The position numbers were made by a program, and so were the translations under genes. Shown in pieces: positions 6,059-23,172 of a stretch of DNA of 23,172 nt. This DNA is from a virus: IMG/VR virus record IMGVR_UViG_3300008117_000440, positions 2,437 to 25,608 of that record. The stretch is one strand, 5' to 3'. Under the pieces are notes generated by a model. The model searched no databases and was not told where the DNA came from. It was given only the letters and a program-made list of their open reading frames with translations. Each line of letters begins with the position of its first letter. The first letter of the stretch is position 1.

Positions 6059-6074
6059 GGGGTTATATAACCCC
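6059..6074 (-). terminator. Perfect GC-anchored palindrome, possible weak terminator or 5' mRNA hairpin
   Basis: GGGGTTATATAACCCC is a perfect 16-nt palindrome. On the minus strand it is preceded by CTGAAA and followed by TGCTTTATCCC, so the T-run is short and interrupted. It could end transcripts coming from the 836-aa gene weakly, or form a stable 5' hairpin on transcripts begun at the late promoter just upstream. Confidence 0.5.
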
Positions 6075-6081
6075 TTTCAGT

Positions 6082-6089
6082 TATTTATA
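6082..6089 (-). promoter_or_regulatory. T4-type late promoter box upstream of the 486-aa fibre gene
   Basis: The minus strand reads TATAAATA exactly, starting 3 nt past the stop codon of the 836-aa adhesin and 65-72 nt before the ATG at 6017. By T4 spacing the start site would be near 6076-6075, at the foot of the GGGG/CCCC palindrome. It would drive the 486-aa and 117-aa genes. Activity is inferred from the match and location. Confidence 0.78.
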
Positions 6090-6092
6090 AAC

Positions 6093-8603
6093 TTAGTCTA
6101 CTCCTAATTCAGCAGAGAATGTAGCATCAATTGCTTTGTCAGGAGCATCTGGACCACCAACGCCTGGTACGGTACCACCACCACCTGGACTATCACCACC
6201 AGTGTCACTTGGAGGATTTTCAACAACAATTGATACAGATAATGTGTCTGAGACGCTGAGCGTGTCAACACCAGTGATAACAAACGCATAGGTGCCAACA
6301 GTTGTTGGAGCACCACTGAGGTAGTATTGGTGACCTATAGTTGGAGTAGCCTGTCTCTCTGTAGCCGCTGTTATTCCTGGCGGTAATGTGCCAGAAGAAA
6401 TAGACCACGTTAGAGGACCAGTTCCTCCTTCATATGAGACAAATACTTCCTCACCTCTGTCATTATAATTCACACCCACATAGCCTTTTGGTGTTGCTGC
6501 AACAACAAGTGCTAATGGATCCGCAGATGGAGGAGGTGGTGGCGGAGGTGGTGGCGGAGGAGGCGGAGGAGGTGGGGCTGGTGGCGTAGCAGCTTTACTC
6601 TGTAACTTAAATGATGCTTGCTTACCTAAGTCTGGTAAAGATATAGTAACTATTCTTAAATTATTTGAACCACCGTCTGATTTAGTTTTAACAAGTGCAA
6701 TATAAAATGCCGAGGAGATTTCTAGGTTACCAATACTGAATGTTCTGGTATACAATTTCCACTCACCATTGAGTGATGTTACCGCGCCTTCAACAGACGT
6801 ATCCAACAACGATTCTGTTAGTCCTGAAATAGAATATCTTACACCAGTGCCAACAGCTTGTGGGGAAGCACTAATTGATACAAAAAATGAATCCCCCTCT
6901 GTGAGAACAGTATCTGCCTCAATAGGTGTATTAGATGATGTCAGTAATGATAATGCATAATTAATTGGATCTGGTGTAGTTGAACTGTCAATAATGTTGA
7001 CTTGTTTAACTAAATTGAGAGATGGGATGGCAAATGTCATTGTCTCAGTTCCCGACTCTGTAGTAAAGTCCTCAATTGCTCTAATTGTAATAGAACCTAT
7101 ATTTTTATTAATTGTTATATTACCATTCAATGAAATTGCATTACCCAACGAATCTCCAATATCTCCTGCTCCAACACCCGTAATTCTATAAGGTATTGTT
7201 GTATCATCAGCGACAGTTGTAGTGTAGAGAGTAAATGTTACTAGTTGACCCTCGCTAATCTCATCAGCTGTTGAAGATAAACTGTATGTTGGGTTTGCAT
7301 CAGTGACATCTACAGTAAGGCTTAGATTCAAACTTGGTACTCTAATTCTAAATTTCTTATCTGTATCAACAATACCATTAGGTCTAATAGTAAACGTTTT
7401 TAGAGAATAAGGCAGATCTGCTGGCGACATCTGATCAGGACCATTATAACCAATTATAAAGGCACCAAACAATGGCTCACCAATATCTTCTGTTGTTACA
7501 CCATCAACAATATAATTAAATATTGTACCTAGAGATGATCGTGTATGTGTCAATTTGATTTCAATTGAATTACCTTCTTGAACTGATGCAGCAGATGATT
7601 CAAGTTTAATTACTGCTGGTGATAATGATGTATCAGCTATCGTAATTGGTAATGATGTTACCCATCCTGGCTGATTGACCTTAACATCAGGTAGAGCAAC
7701 AATCATTGTCTCCAGCCCTTCAGTGGTCAAGTCAGCTGCTGCCGTAATATCAATATGGCCAACATAATATGTTTCTACGTCATATCCTACAGGTTCACCA
7801 GCAAAGATTCCACCAGATGTTACAAACCTTGGCTTTCTTACTTCTGTAGACTGCACAGTGAAGTTACCACTTAATGGAACATCAATATCGCCTGCGCTTA
7901 CTCCACCAATGACATAGGGAACTGAGGCACCATCTGTCTTATTGGTTGTTATCAATGTAACTCTAATTGTTTCACCTTCTTCAATACCAGTTTTATCTGC
8001 ACCCAATACCCAATATTCATCAAGCCTTACTGGCACATCTCCATCATGGACAACAGTTAGTTTCATTGTAAGATCTTGGAATGCACCAGACGTTGATGTT
8101 ACTCTAATAGTAAATGTAAATGCTCCTATGGCATCTGGTGTACCTGAGAAATTGATTGGCGCTGTACAGTATGAATCAATAGGTCTTGTGCCACCTCGAA
8201 CATTGGTAGTAGCACCGGCTGCGATTGTTAACCATGCTGGTTTATTGCCACCACTCAAAACTGTTACAGTAAATACGCTATCAAAAGAACCCAATTCTAC
8301 AACAGACAGTCTATATTGACTGAATGCTGTATTCAATGCTACACCCTTTATTGCATTAGGGAGAACACCAGCATCATCAATCAAAAAACCAACAAATTGT
8401 AATGCCGATGATATTGTCATAGTATAATCATTATAGGCACTTTCAGGATCTGGCACTGTATCATCAGTAACTGTATAGCGCCAATTGTATGTGCCAATCT
8501 TTGTTGGCTGACCTTTTAATAATCCCGTTCGGCCACTGTTGAGAGTGGTTAATGATAAACCAGGAGGTAGACTACCACTTGTTAATGTCCATTTATATGG
8601 CAT
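6093..8603 (-). CDS. Multi-domain Ig/Calx-beta-like adhesin with poly-proline hinge
   Basis: 836 residues from ATG 8603, preceded 8 nt upstream by an AAGGAAGG ribosome site in a 17-nt gap. Visible architecture: a He_PIG-type Ig domain (1-70: SGSLPPGLSLTTLNSG, PTKIGTYNWRYTVTD); a second Ig-like domain (about 85-185); four Calx-beta-like repeats (about 195-330, 333-440, 441-545, 550-670) with the marks EGETIRVTL / EGNSIEIKL / EGQLVTFTL / EGDSFFVSI and TTEGLETM / TTESGTETM; an Ala/Pro segment with 16 consecutive prolines; another He_PIG domain (about 697-790: SSGTLPPGITA, APTTVGTYAFVITG); and a Gly-rich tail (GGDSPGGGGTVPGVGG). Such domains are common in adhesins and phage tail surface proteins. 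No signal peptide or anchor is seen, which fits a virion protein rather than a cell-surface one. It probably works with the 1257-aa adhesin in the same transcript. Confidence 0.87.
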   Translation of the reverse strand: MPYKWTLTSGSLPPGLSLTTLNSGRTGLLKGQPTKIGTYNWRYTVTDDTVPDPESAYNDYTMTISSALQFVGFLIDDAGVLPNAIKGVALNTAFSQYRLSVVELGSFDSVFTVTVLSGGNKPAWLTIAAGATTNVRGGTRPIDSYCTAPINFSGTPDAIGAFTFTIRVTSTSGAFQDLTMKLTVVHDGDVPVRLDEYWVLGADKTGIEEGETIRVTLITTNKTDGASVPYVIGGVSAGDIDVPLSGNFTVQSTEVRKPRFVTSGGIFAGEPVGYDVETYYVGHIDITAAADLTTEGLETMIVALPDVKVNQPGWVTSLPITIADTSLSPAVIKLESSAASVQEGNSIEIKLTHTRSSLGTIFNYIVDGVTTEDIGEPLFGAFIIGYNGPDQMSPADLPYSLKTFTIRPNGIVDTDKKFRIRVPSLNLSLTVDVTDANPTYSLSSTADEISEGQLVTFTLYTTTVADDTTIPYRITGVGAGDIGDSLGNAISLNGNITINKNIGSITIRAIEDFTTESGTETMTFAIPSLNLVKQVNIIDSSTTPDPINYALSLLTSSNTPIEADTVLTEGDSFFVSISASPQAVGTGVRYSISGLTESLLDTSVEGAVTSLNGEWKLYTRTFSIGNLEISSAFYIALVKTKSDGGSNNLRIVTISLPDLGKQASFKLQSKAATPPAPPPPPPPPPPPPPPPPSADPLALVVAATPKGYVGVNYNDRGEEVFVSYEGGTGPLTWSISSGTLPPGITAATERQATPTIGHQYYLSGAPTTVGTYAFVITGVDTLSVSDTLSVSIVVENPPSDTGGDSPGGGGTVPGVGGPDAPDKAIDATFSAELGVD
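6528..6575 (-). repeat. Sixteen-proline codon run in the 836-aa adhesin
   Basis: Sixteen consecutive proline codons (mixed CCA, CCT, CCG) between the last Calx-beta-like repeat and the C-terminal He_PIG domain. The run probably forms a stiff polyproline helix that projects the C-terminal domain. Mixed codons mean it is not simple triplet slippage of one codon. Confidence 0.85.
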
Positions 8604-8620: not shown

Positions 8621-11600
8621 CTAAGAGTCACTTGCTAACATTGCTTGGCTGTCTCCGGCGACACCAATTGAGCCACCGCCAGTAGTGCCACCACTACCAC
8701 CAGCAATATTACCTGGATCGACAAATAGATCCTCTAGGATGATACCGCCCGTCACCGATCCAATATTTAGATTTACATCTTGACCTATTAAGGCATTACC
8801 TGGCTGGACAGCTGTAAACACTAAAGCAGCTGCTGCAGGTGGAGGTTCTATATAACCACCATTTGAAATAAAGACATAATCAGCTGTTACACCAGCTGGT
8901 AATACAGGTGGCTCGTAAATGAACCAATCAAATGCATCATTATTACTAGATGTGTCATTCTGGGTTGTTTCTGATCTTGCCCACAATCTACCGCAAGGGT
9001 ATGATTTACCATCAGATCCAATAAATGTTATAGCGCCGATAGCTGCAGCTCCTGTCTCAGCAAAGCTCATAATCATAAAATAACCAGTTGGTATGATTAC
9101 ATTAGGTGTTTCATTGCCATGGGCTGATCTATGTCCAATACTACTATAGTATCTTGTAGCGTTTGGGAATTTACCTGCATAAAGTGGTCTACCAGATAAA
9201 GCGTATATCGTACTGCCATTATGGAATCCAACAAACTTTGTCTCTGGACCATTGAGACCATTTTCAAAAGGTATTCTGCCATAGTCAATCTGCTCATTGC
9301 CATTACCAAAAACATCGAATGTATGATACATTCTTGGACCATGAGAGTATGTTGACAATCTATAGCATCTACCAGCAGGCATTGGCAAGCTAGCATTAAA
9401 TGATGCGGAAGCTGGGCTGCCTATACTATATGTTACACCAGATTCTGTACTTGTTAACTGGGCAGATACATCAACCTTACTAGATGATGTTGTTATTGTT
9501 GGTAGAACGCCACTAAAATTAGCACTACTATCATAATATACAGATTTTACAGTAATATTAGCTTGACCATTAACAGGATTTGAAACAACTGTAATATTAG
9601 CGTCAGTATTATCGCTAGTTGTTGCAAAAGCAAATCGAGGTGTTGGTATTGTTGTTTCAGATGTGTATGTTGCTGTATAATCAACTCTTTGTTGATAATT
9701 AACCTCAAGTGGATGAGGTTCTTGATAACCAAATCCATTATTAGATTTATTTGTAACTACAAAAGCCTTTGCAGTTGTATTATCTTGGGTAAGGACAACT
9801 TTAGCACCAGCTTTTGGTACTGGAACTTCTATTCCTTGTACTCTTAGATCTCTTAAAAACTTTCCGCCAGGCTTATCATATAATTCATATGTAAAATCAT
9901 AATCAAAGAAAATACCAATAAATGGTTTTAATGTAACTCTATCTCTTCTCTTATTAGAAGATGCTGGATGTTGTGCTGGCGCAGCATTTGTGTTTGCTGC
10001 TTCATTGTAGAATGGTCCAGCTACTTCAGTACCACCAAGTCTGTTGTCGACTCTTCTAATTTCGTAATCAACATTAATTGTACCTGGATAATCTGATTCA
10101 ACAATAATATCTTCGTAGTGATTTAAGACATAGGAGTAGCCACCACTAGAGCCTGTTACCTGACCACTTGAACCAGAAAAATTAATGCCGCCAATACCTA
10201 GGACATATGATGAATATGTTACAGGAAATTTTGTGGCAACTAATGTTGGTGCAAGCGCACTGACAGAAACGCTTACATCTTTAGTTACTGTTCTCGTGAT
10301 ACCCCTATAAACTGATTGAGCTATGACTTTATAAACACCAGATTTAGATGACTGAGTTGCAGTTGCAACAATTGTAATTTTTGTAGGTGATTCTTGTGTG
10401 ACTACTAGATCATCACCACTAACCTTTGCAGGGGGAAACTGAAGACTATGTGTACCCTGGACAGCTGATGAATCAAATATACCTGTTGCTGATTCTGTTT
10501 TTTTGTCTGATGATATTGAAACATTAGCGCCAAGTACTTCAAGCTTAGCAGTTGTAGCATCAATGTTTAAGTTCTGGACACTTTGTGTTTCAATTAGTCT
10601 AGCGCTTGGATCATAAAGATCACCAGTGACCATTGTTGTTTGGTTGTTTGATGTTCCAGTTGCTTGCGATGTGACAAAAACATTAGCTGCAGTTGAGTTT
10701 GTTGAAAAACCAGTTGTGGCATTATCACGAGACCATGTAATAGTACCAACAGATGTAGTACCTGTTACAAGTAATGAAGCAGTTGTACCCGATAAAGCCT
10801 CAAATTGAATATTAGAAGTAGATGCAGCATCTATACTATAGGTATATGGTAGTGATTCTGCTTTAATTAAAACATCTCGAATAGTTTCTGTCTTAACCAC
10901 AACATCATCATATGTTAATTGACCAACAAGCTCAAACGTTGCTGTATTAACAACAGCAGCCGGCTTGTTTTTGCCACTTGGAGATGTAGCTTTAATGTTA
11001 ACTGTTGATGTTGTGGGTAGATCATCTGTCTCAGATTTTGGACCAGGATTACTTCGTGTGATCGATGTCCACTTAAATGTGCCGGCACCCCATGTGGCAG
11101 TACCACTCGAAGTTGCAGTCTGAGCAGAGTAACCACTTTGTGTATTTGAAGGAGGTGGTGTTATTGTTAGACCATATGTACCAGCTCTCAACACAATTGG
11201 TGCTGACCTCTTTTGATCCATGATAATGTTATCAGGTGATCTTAGTGTAGCAACTACAACGACAGATGCTTTCTTGAAACCAAAACCACTAGCATCTTTA
11301 TTGTGATATAAACTTATTCTTTCAACCTTTGTGGATGTGTTTGAAGAAATAGTTTGTTGAGTAACTGTATCACCAGTTGTCTCAAGTGTAAATGTGATTG
11401 TGCCCTGGGCATAGTCTGGAGCAACTGAGTTATGTACCGCTGTAATATCAATTGTGGAGTATTGGCTGGCAGAATTTGAGAATTGATTGTTGGATAATGC
11501 AGCTGGTGTTAATGATGTAATTTGTCTATCAATAAATTGTGCTTTGATATCAATTGTAGATGTATTAGTTGCAACTACTTTTCCATTATTAATCATCTCA

Positions 11601-12394
11601 GATAGTAGAGAATACACTACAGCATTTGTTGATGGTCTTGGAGCTGAGACACCAAAAGATACACTATCCCCAACTCCAGGAAGAACGCCATCGAAGGTAA
11701 ACGTAGGAGTTATTTCTCCAGTGCCCGACAAATACTTTGGTGTAAACCTATATGTGGTTCCTGTCAATGATGCATTAGATGTTGCTGTTACTGTAACAAA
11801 TGCTGTTTGGGCTACGACACCTGTTGCATTAATAGTGAATGCTGGGGTAGCAATAACTTGGAAGGCAGTGTTGACGGCGTTTACCGTCAACTTTATATTT
11901 TTTGTGCATGTATTAACAGTATGACCACCAACTGTCATCACACCAGTCACAGTTAGATTGGCAACCTTAGTACCGCTTAGCGAAGACAATTTAACAACAG
12001 CAGTTTTGCTATTTGTTTTTGTTACTACAATGTCGCTAGCCGTAACACCATCAGAACCACTATCAATACTATAGGTCCATGTTAATAGAGGATCAAACAT
12101 GTCGCTATTGGCCTGAAGCGTAAGCTCAGCCGTTATTGGAGCACCACTTACTGCAATACCACCTTGGGTGTTCGTTGTTGACGTAGTAAAAATTTCTGAG
12201 AAACCAATTTTATTACTCAGATCGCTGAAAAGGATTTCTGTTCCTTGTCTTGATTTTGCTGCTGTTCCTGTTAATTGTCTAACAACAGTATTGGCGCCAA
12301 CATCTTGCTGAATACCAGAACCATCACCAGGATTGATTTCATCTCTGATGTCGGATACATCTAATGCATTGGCTGGTGTCGTTGGGGTGGTCAT
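8621..12394 (-). CDS. Giant Ig-repeat tail adhesin with a globular C-terminal domain
   Basis: 1257 residues, start MTTPTTPANALDVSDIRDEINPG, with AGGG about 8 nt upstream and a late promoter/terminator element just before it. Residues 1-60 (VVRQLTGTAAKSRQGTEILFSDLSNKIGF) resemble a short N-terminal element of many phage tail proteins that ends in 'ISFSDF.GK'. Residues about 60-720 hold roughly six Ig-like repeats of 90-110 residues, most ending in a beta-strand pattern of the kind TGVMTVGG...NIKLTVNA, VGQLTYDD...DVLIKAES or IAQSVYRG...DVSVSVSA. Residues about 720-1020 contain more divergent beta domains. Residues about 1025-1190 (GRCYRLSTYSHGPRMYHTF ... YPCGRLWARSE) look globular and rich in Tyr, His, Arg and Gly, followed by a Gly-rich tail (GGSGGTTGGGSIG). 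This C-terminal part is the best candidate receptor-binding unit. I do not recognise a named family for it. Confidence 0.86.
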   Translation of the reverse strand: MTTPTTPANALDVSDIRDEINPGDGSGIQQDVGANTVVRQLTGTAAKSRQGTEILFSDLSNKIGFSEIFTTSTTNTQGGIAVSGAPITAELTLQANSDMFDPLLTWTYSIDSGSDGVTASDIVVTKTNSKTAVVKLSSLSGTKVANLTVTGVMTVGGHTVNTCTKNIKLTVNAVNTAFQVIATPAFTINATGVVAQTAFVTVTATSNASLTGTTYRFTPKYLSGTGEITPTFTFDGVLPGVGDSVSFGVSAPRPSTNAVVYSLLSEMINNGKVVATNTSTIDIKAQFIDRQITSLTPAALSNNQFSNSASQYSTIDITAVHNSVAPDYAQGTITFTLETTGDTVTQQTISSNTSTKVERISLYHNKDASGFGFKKASVVVVATLRSPDNIIMDQKRSAPIVLRAGTYGLTITPPPSNTQSGYSAQTATSSGTATWGAGTFKWTSITRSNPGPKSETDDLPTTSTVNIKATSPSGKNKPAAVVNTATFELVGQLTYDDVVVKTETIRDVLIKAESLPYTYSIDAASTSNIQFEALSGTTASLLVTGTTSVGTITWSRDNATTGFSTNSTAANVFVTSQATGTSNNQTTMVTGDLYDPSARLIETQSVQNLNIDATTAKLEVLGANVSISSDKKTESATGIFDSSAVQGTHSLQFPPAKVSGDDLVVTQESPTKITIVATATQSSKSGVYKVIAQSVYRGITRTVTKDVSVSVSALAPTLVATKFPVTYSSYVLGIGGINFSGSSGQVTGSSGGYSYVLNHYEDIIVESDYPGTINVDYEIRRVDNRLGGTEVAGPFYNEAANTNAAPAQHPASSNKRRDRVTLKPFIGIFFDYDFTYELYDKPGGKFLRDLRVQGIEVPVPKAGAKVVLTQDNTTAKAFVVTNKSNNGFGYQEPHPLEVNYQQRVDYTATYTSETTIPTPRFAFATTSDNTDANITVVSNPVNGQANITVKSVYYDSSANFSGVLPTITTSSSKVDVSAQLTSTESGVTYSIGSPASASFNASLPMPAGRCYRLSTYSHGPRMYHTFDVFGNGNEQIDYGRIPFENGLNGPETKFVGFHNGSTIYALSGRPLYAGKFPNATRYYSSIGHRSAHGNETPNVIIPTGYFMIMSFAETGAAAIGAITFIGSDGKSYPCGRLWARSETTQNDTSSNNDAFDWFIYEPPVLPAGVTADYVFISNGGYIEPPPAAAALVFTAVQPGNALIGQDVNLNIGSVTGGIILEDLFVDPGNIAGGSGGTTGGGSIGVAGDSQAMLASDS

Positions 12395-12406
12395 TTCAAA
12401 CCCTAT

Positions 12407-12439
12407 AAAAAAAGGCTACGTATCTATTTATACGTAGCC
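12407..12439 (-). terminator. Intrinsic terminator after the 78-aa gene
   Basis: On the minus strand a perfect 10-bp stem (GGCTACGTAT / ATACGTAGCC, 12439-12430 and 12423-12414) with a 6-nt loop AAATAG is followed directly by seven T's (12413-12407). This is a textbook rho-independent terminator. It sits 19 nt past the stop codon of the 78-aa gene and would end the upstream transcript. Confidence 0.9.
12425..12432 (-). promoter_or_regulatory. T4-type late promoter box inside the terminator hairpin
   Basis: The minus strand reads TATAAATA exactly, the -10 box used by the gp55 sigma of T4-like phages. The box spans the end of the first stem arm and most of the loop. By T4 spacing, transcription would start about 6 nt downstream, inside the second stem arm, so the new transcript would lack the full hairpin. 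It would drive the 1257- and 836-aa adhesins with a leader of about 25-30 nt. That the box is functional is inferred from the exact match and its position. Confidence 0.78.
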
Positions 12440-12457
12440 CTAGTTGAGATTTGAAGC

Positions 12458-12694
12458 TTATTTTTGAATTTGTTCTTGTGCCTGGGGAGCAGGTTTAGGT
12501 GCTCGGAGTGCTTCAATCTTCTTTTTTAAATTTGTTATTTCTTCGTCTTTTTGTAATAATGCAGCCTCTAGCTGGGCCACCTTTTCAGTATTAATATCAA
12601 GTTGTGCTTTTAATAATATTACTTGTCCAGTAGTTTCAATCCACATATTTCTATGACCATTAAAAAGCCTTTCGACTAAATCATTTTGACTCAT
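12458..12694 (-). CDS. Small coiled-coil protein
   Basis: 78 residues, starting MSQNDLVERLFNGHRN, with GAGG about 7 nt before the ATG and a 20-nt gap after the 792-aa fibre gene. Residues about 25-65 form one strong heptad-type helix (ILLKAQLDINTEKVAQLEAAL, then KDEEITNLKKKIEAL). The tail is Pro/Ala/Gln/Lys-rich (PKPAPQAQEQIQK). There is no signal peptide or membrane segment. It is the last gene before a strong terminator. I do not recognise a family. A trimerising connector, small fibre chaperone or accessory virion peptide would each fit the context. Low-complexity charged coiled coils are hard to assign from sequence alone. Confidence 0.8.
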   Translation of the reverse strand: MSQNDLVERLFNGHRNMWIETTGQVILLKAQLDINTEKVAQLEAALLQKDEEITNLKKKIEALRAPKPAPQAQEQIQK

Positions 12695-21700: not shown

Positions 21701-23172
21701 ATTGGCTGTATTAGCCTTGAATGGTCTAAAGTCAACAACATCTCTGAGGTCATATGTGACTACAACATTAGCCATTGTAGTTGTATACTGAGGAATTTCA
21801 TATGTTCTAATGTATACACTTGTGTTAGCGTTAATGTTGTCATTAGCTGGATATGATTCAACAGAGAAGAATCCCTCACCAGAGGAAGCATTAGGTGTGA
21901 AGCAATCAAATTGAACCAACAAGAAGTTATTAGCTAATGTACCAATTGAAGATGTTTGTGATAATGAAATTTTTGCATGGTCGTAGAATGAATCTCTCTG
22001 ACCAGAATCCAATATAAAATCATTGACTCTATTTTGGGTCGTGACAAAATTTGTAGCATTACTGCCAAGATAAACACCAGTTAATCTAAAGACGTCTGGT
22101 ATACCAAGCGACCATGGACCTGTGCCATTTGTTACAGCATTGTTACCTGTATTAATGATTACAAGGCAGTTTCTGTTTACATCTTTACCAAGGTGGGATG
22201 CTTCATTATTATATGCTTGGAATCTTACTGTAGCTGTAGTTGTTCCTGTGTAATTAACACCTAGGTTTGCTGTAGCAGTCTGACGGTCCTCTGATACAGT
22301 AACTGTTCTCTTACTACCCGTTGCTGGATTTAGAGCAATTGTTGAACCCTTTAAGTGGACTCTTCTATATGTGTTTGCAGCTACTGTTACATTGCCGTTA
22401 ACCGTCAAGCTTGTGTTGCTTGTAATGGCTGTAATTCTTCTTGTTGTTGCAGCACCAACAAATTCAATACACTCACCAACAACAAAGTCATCTGTGAATG
22501 TTGTGCTTGTACCAGTAATAACATTTGTAGCTGATGCTGCTACAGTACCCGATAGAGCTACTGTGGATGCATTACCACTTGTCGGAATAATCTCAATCTT
22601 AGACTCGCCAAGGTCAAGAGCTGGGTTACCACTGAATCCAATTTGACCCTTTAGTGAACCTACGCCAAATGAAACAAGTCCACTTGTAACATTGATTACA
22701 GCTGTAGTGTTTGCTGCAATATAATAGTAATTGGTATCGTCATTACCATCTGCGTCTTGTAAATTTTTAACAGCTTTAGCACCTAGTGAGAAGAACATGG
22801 CCTGGCCATTTGCTTCTAGTAAATTTGGTAGGCTGCTGGTTAAAACAAGATCTGCAAATGCTTGTGAATTTGTAGAGTTAGCTGTGCCAGTGTGGTATAC
22901 AACTGATCTTGCGTCCTTGAATGAGAATGTGCCAACTGGTCTATAGTTGAAAATGTATAGTCTATATTTGGCGTCTGGGTTACCCTTCTTTGTTGAACCA
23001 TCATCAATAAACTTAATAGCTCTTGCATTTGCATAGCCAACAATTGTTCCTGTGGCAGCTTCACCAGCAAGTACTTCGTTTGTTACAGCACCCTGGGCAG
23101 TGCCATAAAACACAACTTCAACTGTTTGATCGGTTGGGAAGAAGCCTACAACTTCTTTGATCTCGACATAAT
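18758..23172 (-). CDS. Very large virion structural protein (DUF4815-like), N-terminus outside window
   Basis: 1470 residues are visible; the frame is open to the right edge (YVEIKEVVGFFPTDQTVEVV before the first possible internal start at 23113), so the true start is upstream. Around residues 570-620 come VTVPPYPSLTDIERQSVFR and FTMKDISILEKRIERLEYY, a helical hallmark I associate with huge DUF4815-type proteins of marine T4-like phages. Around 850-910 come FRAVGLKPNTIHYLFINGNN and SRGEIVGKFILPPN, also typical of these. A Pro/Asn/Gly linker (about 945-985) leads to a PKD-like domain (about 990-1095), then YVTAGGSGYSNSDTV and QVTINGVVQLGG-type beta domains. The protein ends with a Pro/Gly tail (PPPTTPGPGGGGGGSRGGG) and RYDPDRGPMKHK. 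Probably a baseplate-periphery or fibre-base protein; the next gene seems to continue its usual architecture. Confidence 0.88.
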   Translation of the reverse strand, partial: YVEIKEVVGFFPTDQTVEVVFYGTAQGAVTNEVLAGEAATGTIVGYANARAIKFIDDGSTKKGNPDAKYRLYIFNYRPVGTFSFKDARSVVYHTGTANSTNSQAFADLVLTSSLPNLLEANGQAMFFSLGAKAVKNLQDADGNDDTNYYYIAANTTAVINVTSGLVSFGVGSLKGQIGFSGNPALDLGESKIEIIPTSGNASTVALSGTVAASATNVITGTSTTFTDDFVVGECIEFVGAATTRRITAITSNTSLTVNGNVTVAANTYRRVHLKGSTIALNPATGSKRTVTVSEDRQTATANLGVNYTGTTTATVRFQAYNNEASHLGKDVNRNCLVIINTGNNAVTNGTGPWSLGIPDVFRLTGVYLGSNATNFVTTQNRVNDFILDSGQRDSFYDHAKISLSQTSSIGTLANNFLLVQFDCFTPNASSGEGFFSVESYPANDNINANTSVYIRTYEIPQYTTTMANVVVTYDLRDVVDFRPFKANTANVTTALATATINPPLTNTFNSNTINYNPIPGEDFISNFTYYLGRKDRLTLNSDGIFRVQEGLPDRFPRLPAASPDVLTIAEVTVPPYPSLTDIERQSVFRTDYNIKYDVLSHKRFTMKDISILEKRIERLEYYTTLNMLESLALQTTVSDDNGDARFQNGFFVDPFVSHAFGRTDDLEYKIAIDEKKGLLRPSFIPEVVEMEFDTNTDSYTNVAVTGGMISLAYTHEAYLDQPYASDPVNVSGVPILWNGIIDIRPKVTNSIEYLKPALAVGSTSKVAESYSKMVAVTPGTANYGWWRGEIQNNDDYNIGNSSNDARNATSVAMQTTKQMTGENGDTVSSGIVYLSAEKVFAFRAVGLKPNTIHYLFINGNNNSQLAALGELSGSTKPDESFVTRTSPWNTPLESDSRGEIVGKFILPPNSVSSGTHKLTLRNRNTISSGVDESFAEGLFAVTLDLKDPPQQPQPNTQPPPANTGANTGGNTSANTPVTGGNTQPTPNVIARFIVSGEQTIYAVANSTGYMPNGQFSITFTDDSFVKNGTITAYEWTFGAIPNVIECSSNTLSGAGPHTITYKTTDSVQDVSVSLKVTDNASRISETSQTFTLRKLPKIIDSGNTTPNTSLAVPNCNLTLLSSIYDEISDVFDYFRWGVTNVDPLYFNINMNYPYAYFTYDTAAALSTTAVLKIIAKPDKDYEGNVVWTVTTLSGPTISEYEYANLTQVYVTAGGSGYSNSDTVRFSNGQVDAFGTVSTNATGGIAKVTLTSFGNFSNGAPVTVSTFIANSTVNNSFTMTGSGHTNTSIQVTINGVVQLGGTDYSVSGGSTLVLTTQAALNDYVTVYYSINGTPGTGLIGVNNIRVQVANSTAPANSTNGNTSAGTGASLLLIAGDTANTVPGTARLTNDLLTLRSNASNTTPSVVQVKADMFLANGYANSIANVTQVFTLRSTSVPPSNPPPTTPGPGGGGGGSRGGGRYDPDRGPMKHK

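Follow-up and report, generated by a model that had tools for sequence, protein, structure and literature searches.

The gap upstream of a large adhesin-like gene of an uncultured phage contains a 33-bp element that is probably a self-exempting unit, in which a T4-type late promoter is nested in an intrinsic terminator whose hairpin the promoter's own transcript would be unable to form. The main support, drawn from sequence comparison, is conservation of the element in six phages with diverged flanking genes, and a counterpart in Stenotrophomonas phage DLP6 in which the structure and the position of the box are kept but the letters of the stem are not.

Locus and anatomy of the element

The window, i.e. 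the whole stretch of 23,172 nucleotides that was analysed, corresponds to bases 2437–25608 of a 41,223-base virus record, which is a fragment of an uncultured phage's genome (contig G000). The G+C content is 38%, and all genes of the window and the contig are on the minus strand. They include gp25- and gp6-like baseplate genes and genes for large VrlC-like, tail-fibre and adhesin-like proteins. DLP6 is the closest isolate found, with identities of 47% for gp6, 38% for the VrlC-like protein and 30% for the adhesin; no adhesin relatives were found in bacterial genomes. The element lies in a 63-nt gap between a 78-aa gene, the last before the element (stop codon 12460–12458), and a 1257-aa adhesin-like gene (ATG 12394–12392), which would be the first gene of a restarted unit, the next being an 836-aa gene (6093–8603).

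Table 1. Features of the element and its surroundings (window coordinates)
Feature	Coordinates	Strand	Remarks
Upstream gene, 78 aa	12458..12694	-	Coiled-coil-like; weak similarity to tail-fibre PHROG 1766
Conserved block	12383..12460	-	From the stop codon of the 78-aa gene through adhesin codon 4; nearly identical across six phages
Terminator stem, 5' arm GGCTACGTAT	12430..12439	-	12 pairs if extended to 12441
T4-type late promoter box TATAAATA	12425..12432	-	Nested: end of arm 1 and loop
Hairpin loop AAATAG, 6 nt	12424..12429	-	Sequence and fold
Terminator stem, 3' arm ATACGTAGCC	12414..12423	-	Sequence and fold
Predicted late +1 (G)	12419..12419	-	Placed by T4 spacing (box from -13 to -6)
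T7 tract of intrinsic terminator	12407..12413	-	Also +7 to +13 of predicted late transcript
AGGG, probable Shine-Dalgarno of adhesin gene	12401..12404	-	Sequence
Downstream gene, 1257-aa adhesin-like virion protein	8621..12394	-	DLP6 homologue, 30% identity

On the minus strand from 12439 to 12407 the element reads 5'-GGCTACGTAT AAATAG ATACGTAGCC TTTTTTT-3', and this was confirmed base by base. An earlier note on this DNA had described a 10-bp minus-strand stem with a T7 tail and an exact late box that occupies the end of the first arm and most of the loop, and each of these features was found. The stem is perfect over 10 bp, or 12 pairs when outer G-U and A-U pairs are counted, and the exact TATAAATA box takes up 3 nt of arm 1 and five of the six loop nucleotides. 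The hairpin starts 18 nt past the stop codon of the 78-aa gene, and 9 nt separate the end of the inner hairpin from the AGGG. Late boxes of T4 are located at -13 to -6 relative to the start (PMC1524935); the late start was therefore placed at 12419, the fifth base of arm 2, with a predicted leader of 25 nt.

Other features of the window were recorded as well. The 836-aa protein has a putative Ig domain and, nearer its C-terminus, a long polyproline run. A run of N at the window end (about 23168–23172, or about 25604–25612 of G000) interrupts a reading frame, and the GTG start of the large open reading frame at 23113 is probably an artefact.

Predicted terminator and late promoter

A fold energy of -16.7 kcal/mol (z = -6.0) was obtained for the hairpin, and none of 200 shuffled sequences folded equally well. 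It was the top site in a terminator scan that gave 26 sites against 12.2 expected, and the 41-kb contig has no other strong terminator on its coding strand. As in intrinsic terminators, a stable G+C-containing stem is followed directly by a T-tract, just past a stop codon. The opposite strand of the palindrome has no T-tract; hence, the terminator is one-directional. If a box were dropped at random into the coding-strand gaps of this phage family, it would hit a strong terminator in about 1% of cases, so that a single overlap in a genome is not astronomically unlikely in itself. What decides in favour of the element, at the level of sequence, is its conservation.

The TATAAATA box is not more frequent in the window than expected by chance (2 found, 2.4 expected). 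However, each of the contig's four copies is on the coding strand immediately before a gene and none is on the other strand, and in four related contigs 49 late boxes are in the coding and 4 in the antisense orientation, 31 of the 49 being in gaps upstream of starts. Thus, the box is non-random in placement rather than in frequency, which supports a real late promoter. The 188-kb relative G001 encodes homologues of gp55 (E 9e-19), gp45 (1e-18) and gp33 (8e-4), i.e. the late sigma factor, clamp and co-activator, and also gp23, gp20 and gp17. The presence of gp55, gp33 and gp45 was read from G001, since the contig that holds the window is not complete enough for this.

Two other late-box sites were noted. 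Past a second exact box of the window (6059–6089, minus strand) comes a palindrome, AGGGGTTATATAACCCCT, with which the mRNA would begin, and the palindrome arms at 48982–49010 of G001 (GAGGTTATATAACCT) appear changed in step; this is a possible 5' stabilising hairpin. An exact box directed opposite to nearly all genes, with the conserved flank TATAAATAcctatatgagttataaggggcg, was seen in G001 (13195, minus), G002 (52965, plus) and G003 (30821, plus), and is possibly a conserved antisense late promoter.

Conservation in related phages

The element is present in the window and in five IMG/VR contigs (G001, G002, G003, L278 and L279), with one copy in the window's contig and one in each relative. 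The hairpin, T-tract, ribosome site and first four adhesin codons are invariant, the exceptions being a single T insertion in G002 and a single base of codon four in L278. Between the window and G001, G002 or G003 the gap is 89–100% identical, while nucleotide identity in the flanks is 55–60% for the 78-aa gene and 50–80% for the adhesin start, and in the most diverged pairs the flanking genes share 48–60%. The median identity of gaps that separate orthologous neighbours is 0.73, and given the divergence of its flanks the element gap is the most conserved of those compared; nearly all other gaps with at least 90% identity are flanked by proteins that are ~80% identical or better.

In G000, G001 and G003 the gap is 98–100% identical, and amino acid identity steps across the element from ~49% in the upstream gene to 67–97% in the adhesin N-terminus. 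Because of this step, exchange of the adhesin module, and not selection, may account for part of the near-identity among the three. In G002, identity is only ~40–50% for the adhesin as well as for the upstream gene, and the gap is nevertheless kept; thus, module exchange alone cannot explain the gap.

The adhesin itself (8621–12394) appears mosaic in comparison with G001, G003 and L279. Its first ~420 amino acids are 67–97% identical, followed by a stretch with ~35–55% identity (G001 and L279), and the gene immediately upstream of the element is 47–49% identical, which puts a step at the element.

The DNA of the element had no match in 50,697 phage records. Among the matches listed for a loop-geometry pattern with SCTTTTT, the full stem was found in the window's family only, the remainder being mostly AT-rich chance matches or other palindromes.

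A counterpart in phage DLP6

The orthologous gap of DLP6 (KU682439, 165817–165892) reads CAGAGCCAGCGCTAAATACAGCGTCTGGCTCTTTCTTTTGGAACCGAAATG. It contains the hairpin AGAGCCAGCGCT-AAATAC-AGCG(T)CTGGCTCT followed by TTTCTTTT, with 12 bp, one bulged T and a fold energy of -20 kcal/mol. The loop is AAATAC, the stem arms are unrelated in sequence to those of the window, and the distance from TAAATA to the ATG is 36 nt in both phages. When the two gaps are aligned in register, four pairs are changed on both sides, a number reached by none of 500 shuffles, and the outer pairs re-form past the bulge; this evidence for compensation comes from one divergent sequence and requires the 1-nt bulge.

TAAATA occurs 17 times in the 168 kb of DLP6, 15 of these on the plus strand, and eight plus-strand copies, mostly TAAATAC, are located 30–49 nt before plus-strand starts. 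Since the motif is scarce, confined largely to the plus strand and positioned before starts, the TAAATAC in the adhesin gap is likely the late box of this phage, although as CTAAATAC it falls short of the full consensus. At the level of sequence, then, the structure and the register of the box are kept between the window and DLP6, and the letters are not. An account of the terminator and late-box arrangement of the adhesin gap was not found in the main text of the DLP6 paper.

Recurrence of nested late boxes

Late promoters placed in ribosome-site hairpins are known from T4 e, soc, I-TevI, segB and I-TevII and from mobE of Aeh1 (PMC2988022). The frequency of such overlaps was determined in T4, DLP6, G001, gp6- and VrlC-based loci and eight isolates, a partly ascertained set, with nine hexamers matching the late-box composition as controls. 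A fold scan at an E cut-off of -8 gave many matches in coding regions at rates near those of the control hexamers; hence, only strong hairpins in gaps were used. Seven of 354 late-box cores in gaps, compared with none of 802 control hexamers, were in the loop of a hairpin with at least 8 pairs (p = 2e-4). Among the seven are two T4 cases that act as positive controls, genes e and I-TevII, together with the near-copies L238 and L239 and the window-type element of G001, which was known beforehand. With a T-tract after the hairpin the counts were 2/354 and 0/802 (p = 0.09, in the partly ascertained set). The test suggested in the earlier note, whether the overlap exceeds chance in T4-like genomes, thus gives a positive answer for hairpins around the box, and only two cases for hairpins with a T-tract. 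The counts are lower bounds, and a second nested type, between genes 19 and 20, was missed by the scan as its box bases are paired.

This second type was found in 19 contigs of another T4-like group (L378, L373, L430, L418, L417, L406, L396, L372, L436, L422, L420, L410, L401, L391, L369, L366, L365, L414 and L437). A perfect 12-bp hairpin, ATAGGTCCGCTA-AATA-TAGCGGACCTAT, is followed by T7–T8, and the nested CTAAATA box is ~32–36 nt before the portal start codon. The flanking genes were identified as gp19 and gp20 by phmmer against T4 (E at most 1e-21 and 1e-106, respectively). The search pattern fixed the inner stem, with the T-tract and the gene position outside it, and the 19 contigs are close relatives; therefore, they were counted as one further origin. 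L437 has a compensatory outer pair.

In most of the gene 19/20 contigs an upstream AGCGGA, absent in L437, could pair with arm 1 (TCCGCT) and could thus form an alternative, antiterminator-like stem. In L259 (4349), a late box occupies the loop of a 15-bp hairpin that carries a Shine-Dalgarno sequence in its 3' arm (GGAAGAGAGGATAATTTTTTATGG); this hairpin of an uncultured phage resembles the ribosome-site hairpins of T4 e and I-TevI.

Looser arrangements occur as well. G001, G002 and a few other contigs have a related hairpin in the gene 19/20 gap without a good T-tract; in the corresponding gaps of isolates, ACG-2014f has a terminator and then CGCTAAATATA, and in ACG-2014d the box begins within the last bases of arm 2. 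In T4 and phiAS4 the box abuts a hairpin between genes 18 and 19. In the T4 genome, no late box nested in a T-tailed terminator was found, and there were only tandem pairs. Judged from these sequences, nested terminators are rare as a whole, but where they occur they are strongly conserved, and they recur in the gene 19/20 gap.

Discussion

RNA polymerase arriving from the fibre genes would copy both arms, and the resulting RNA hairpin would cause release at the U7 tract. Late in infection, RNA polymerase carrying gp55, with gp33 and the gp45 clamp, would recognise the loop-forming TATAAATA and start at ~12419 inside the 3' arm, giving an adhesin mRNA without the 5' arm, in which the terminator cannot form. 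Such nesting is possible because a T4-type late promoter consists of an 8-bp box only. In this way, 33 bp would suffice for stop and restart, and the adhesin unit would gain its own level of transcription. The location of the start, the efficiency of termination and the coexistence of the two activities are predicted here.

The proposals of the earlier note that a late promoter and a terminator share one ~33-bp element, that a start in the second arm lets the new transcript escape while the incoming one is stopped, and that the element separates a fibre cluster, here a fibre/chaperone unit, from an adhesin cluster with restart of transcription all gain support from conservation in the six phages and from DLP6. 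Its further idea of a switch, operated by hairpin extrusion or mutual interference, found no support. A bistable switch in which DNA cruciform extrusion or read-through sets the active function has the palindrome itself in its favour and nothing further; there is no alternative conserved pairing, the one-way logic accounts for the anatomy, and a self-exempting unit needs no switch. We consider such a switch highly improbable.

It is possible, though on the whole unlikely, that the block is a late analogue of the PeSL recombination cassettes, retained mainly as a homology joint for swaps of adhesin modules, with termination and initiation secondary or relaxed. PeSLs are composite promoter–terminator motifs that, according to the title of Comeau et al. 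2014 (listed in PMC5931544), mediate shuffling in T4-like phages. The near-identical gap of G000, G001 and G003 between an upstream gene of ~49% and an adhesin N-terminus of 67–97% identity would fit such a joint, as would the location at the border of a host-recognition module. However, G002, with flanks of ~50% identity, has the same sequence from hairpin to start codon bar one T, which needs selection; DLP6 retains the structure without retaining the letters; and the element is single-copy in each genome whereas PeSLs are repeated. The joint and the self-exempting unit are compatible readings.

Control at the RNA level is a poorer candidate. Here the hairpin and an outer helix would mask the adhesin ribosome site in read-through RNA, and the nested promoter would yield hairpin-free RNA, as in T4 e, soc and I-TevI. 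An outer helix (UUCAAAUCU/GGGUUUGAA) indeed pairs the ribosome-site AGGG in G000, G001 and G003, and the same geometry, a late box in a hairpin with the predicted start in or after the 3' arm, is shared with T4 e and I-TevII (our scan; PMC2988022). On the other hand, the outer helix is missing in G002 (it is present in three of the four relatives folded), the predicted accessibility of the ribosome site is no higher in the late RNA, and the inner hairpin stops short of the AGGG and has behind it the T7 tract typical of a terminator. Still less credible is a coincidence in which a terminator and a late promoter, both ordinary and under no joint constraint, happen to overlap in a short gap. Tandem pairs of the two are frequent, and with ~1% of random gap positions hitting a strong terminator one such case in a genome or two could arise, but conservation in six phages, the DLP6 match with other arms and the repeat at the gene 19/20 gap speak against chance, which is disfavoured because of the latter two cases in particular.

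A wider reading, for which we see the balance as even, is that nested hairpins are a recurrent device of environmental T4-superfamily phages. The loop would be the promoter of a self-exempting terminator that arose at least twice with unrelated arms, in the tail-tube/portal and the fibre/adhesin gaps, under selection on structure, and that also serves as an exchange joint at host-recognition modules. If the self-exempting reading is true, a T4-type late promoter in its minimal form, with 8 bp and no -35, fits inside a terminator loop, and one 33-bp hairpin ends one transcript, begins the next and spares its own, making a compact natural insulator. It would explain separate levels for capsid, tail and adhesin genes within one long late operon, and predictions that treat terminators and promoters as mutually exclusive will miss such sites. 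In the literature searched, no account of a terminator with a late promoter inside it was found. The pairing of terminators with late promoters is already known in the form of common tandem units, and what is new here is the compact nested form.

Comparison with known systems

PeSLs, reportedly described by Arbiol in 2010 and Comeau in 2014, are said to combine a stem-loop with an early sigma70-type promoter and to occur in many copies in hyperplastic regions. Like these, the window element is a compact composite of terminator and promoter at a module boundary and a possible recombination joint. With regard to breakpoints of gene replacement, the identity step seen across it between G000 and G001 or G003 may mark one. 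It differs from PeSLs in that its promoter is late and nested and the element is single-copy beside a virion adhesin gene; no sigma70-like site was among those listed for the gap (12395–12457), and multiple copies were not found in the contig or in any relative.

Like the window, the DLP6 adhesin gap has a terminator with a late-type box, in DLP6 with the loop AAATAC and the box TAAATAC, an equal distance to the ATG and a homologous downstream gene. It differs in the unrelated arms, the one bulge and the CTAAATAC box.

In the ribosome-site hairpins of T4 e, soc, I-TevI and segB and of Aeh1 mobE (PMC2988022), a late box is likewise within a hairpin, and the late RNA lacks the inhibitory 5' arm. 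Those hairpins block translation of longer transcripts, whereas that of the window has a T7 tract and should end transcription. Its inner hairpin does not pair the downstream ribosome site, which an outer helix may do in three of the four relatives folded. The tandem units of T4 (genes 8/9, 35/36, alt and 18/19) and their cyanophage equivalents are alike in that transcription of one unit stops at a terminator or hairpin and is restarted for the next virion gene from a gp55-type box. In these units the box lies 0–30 nt past the hairpin, while in the window element the box is the loop and the predicted +1 falls in the 3' arm.
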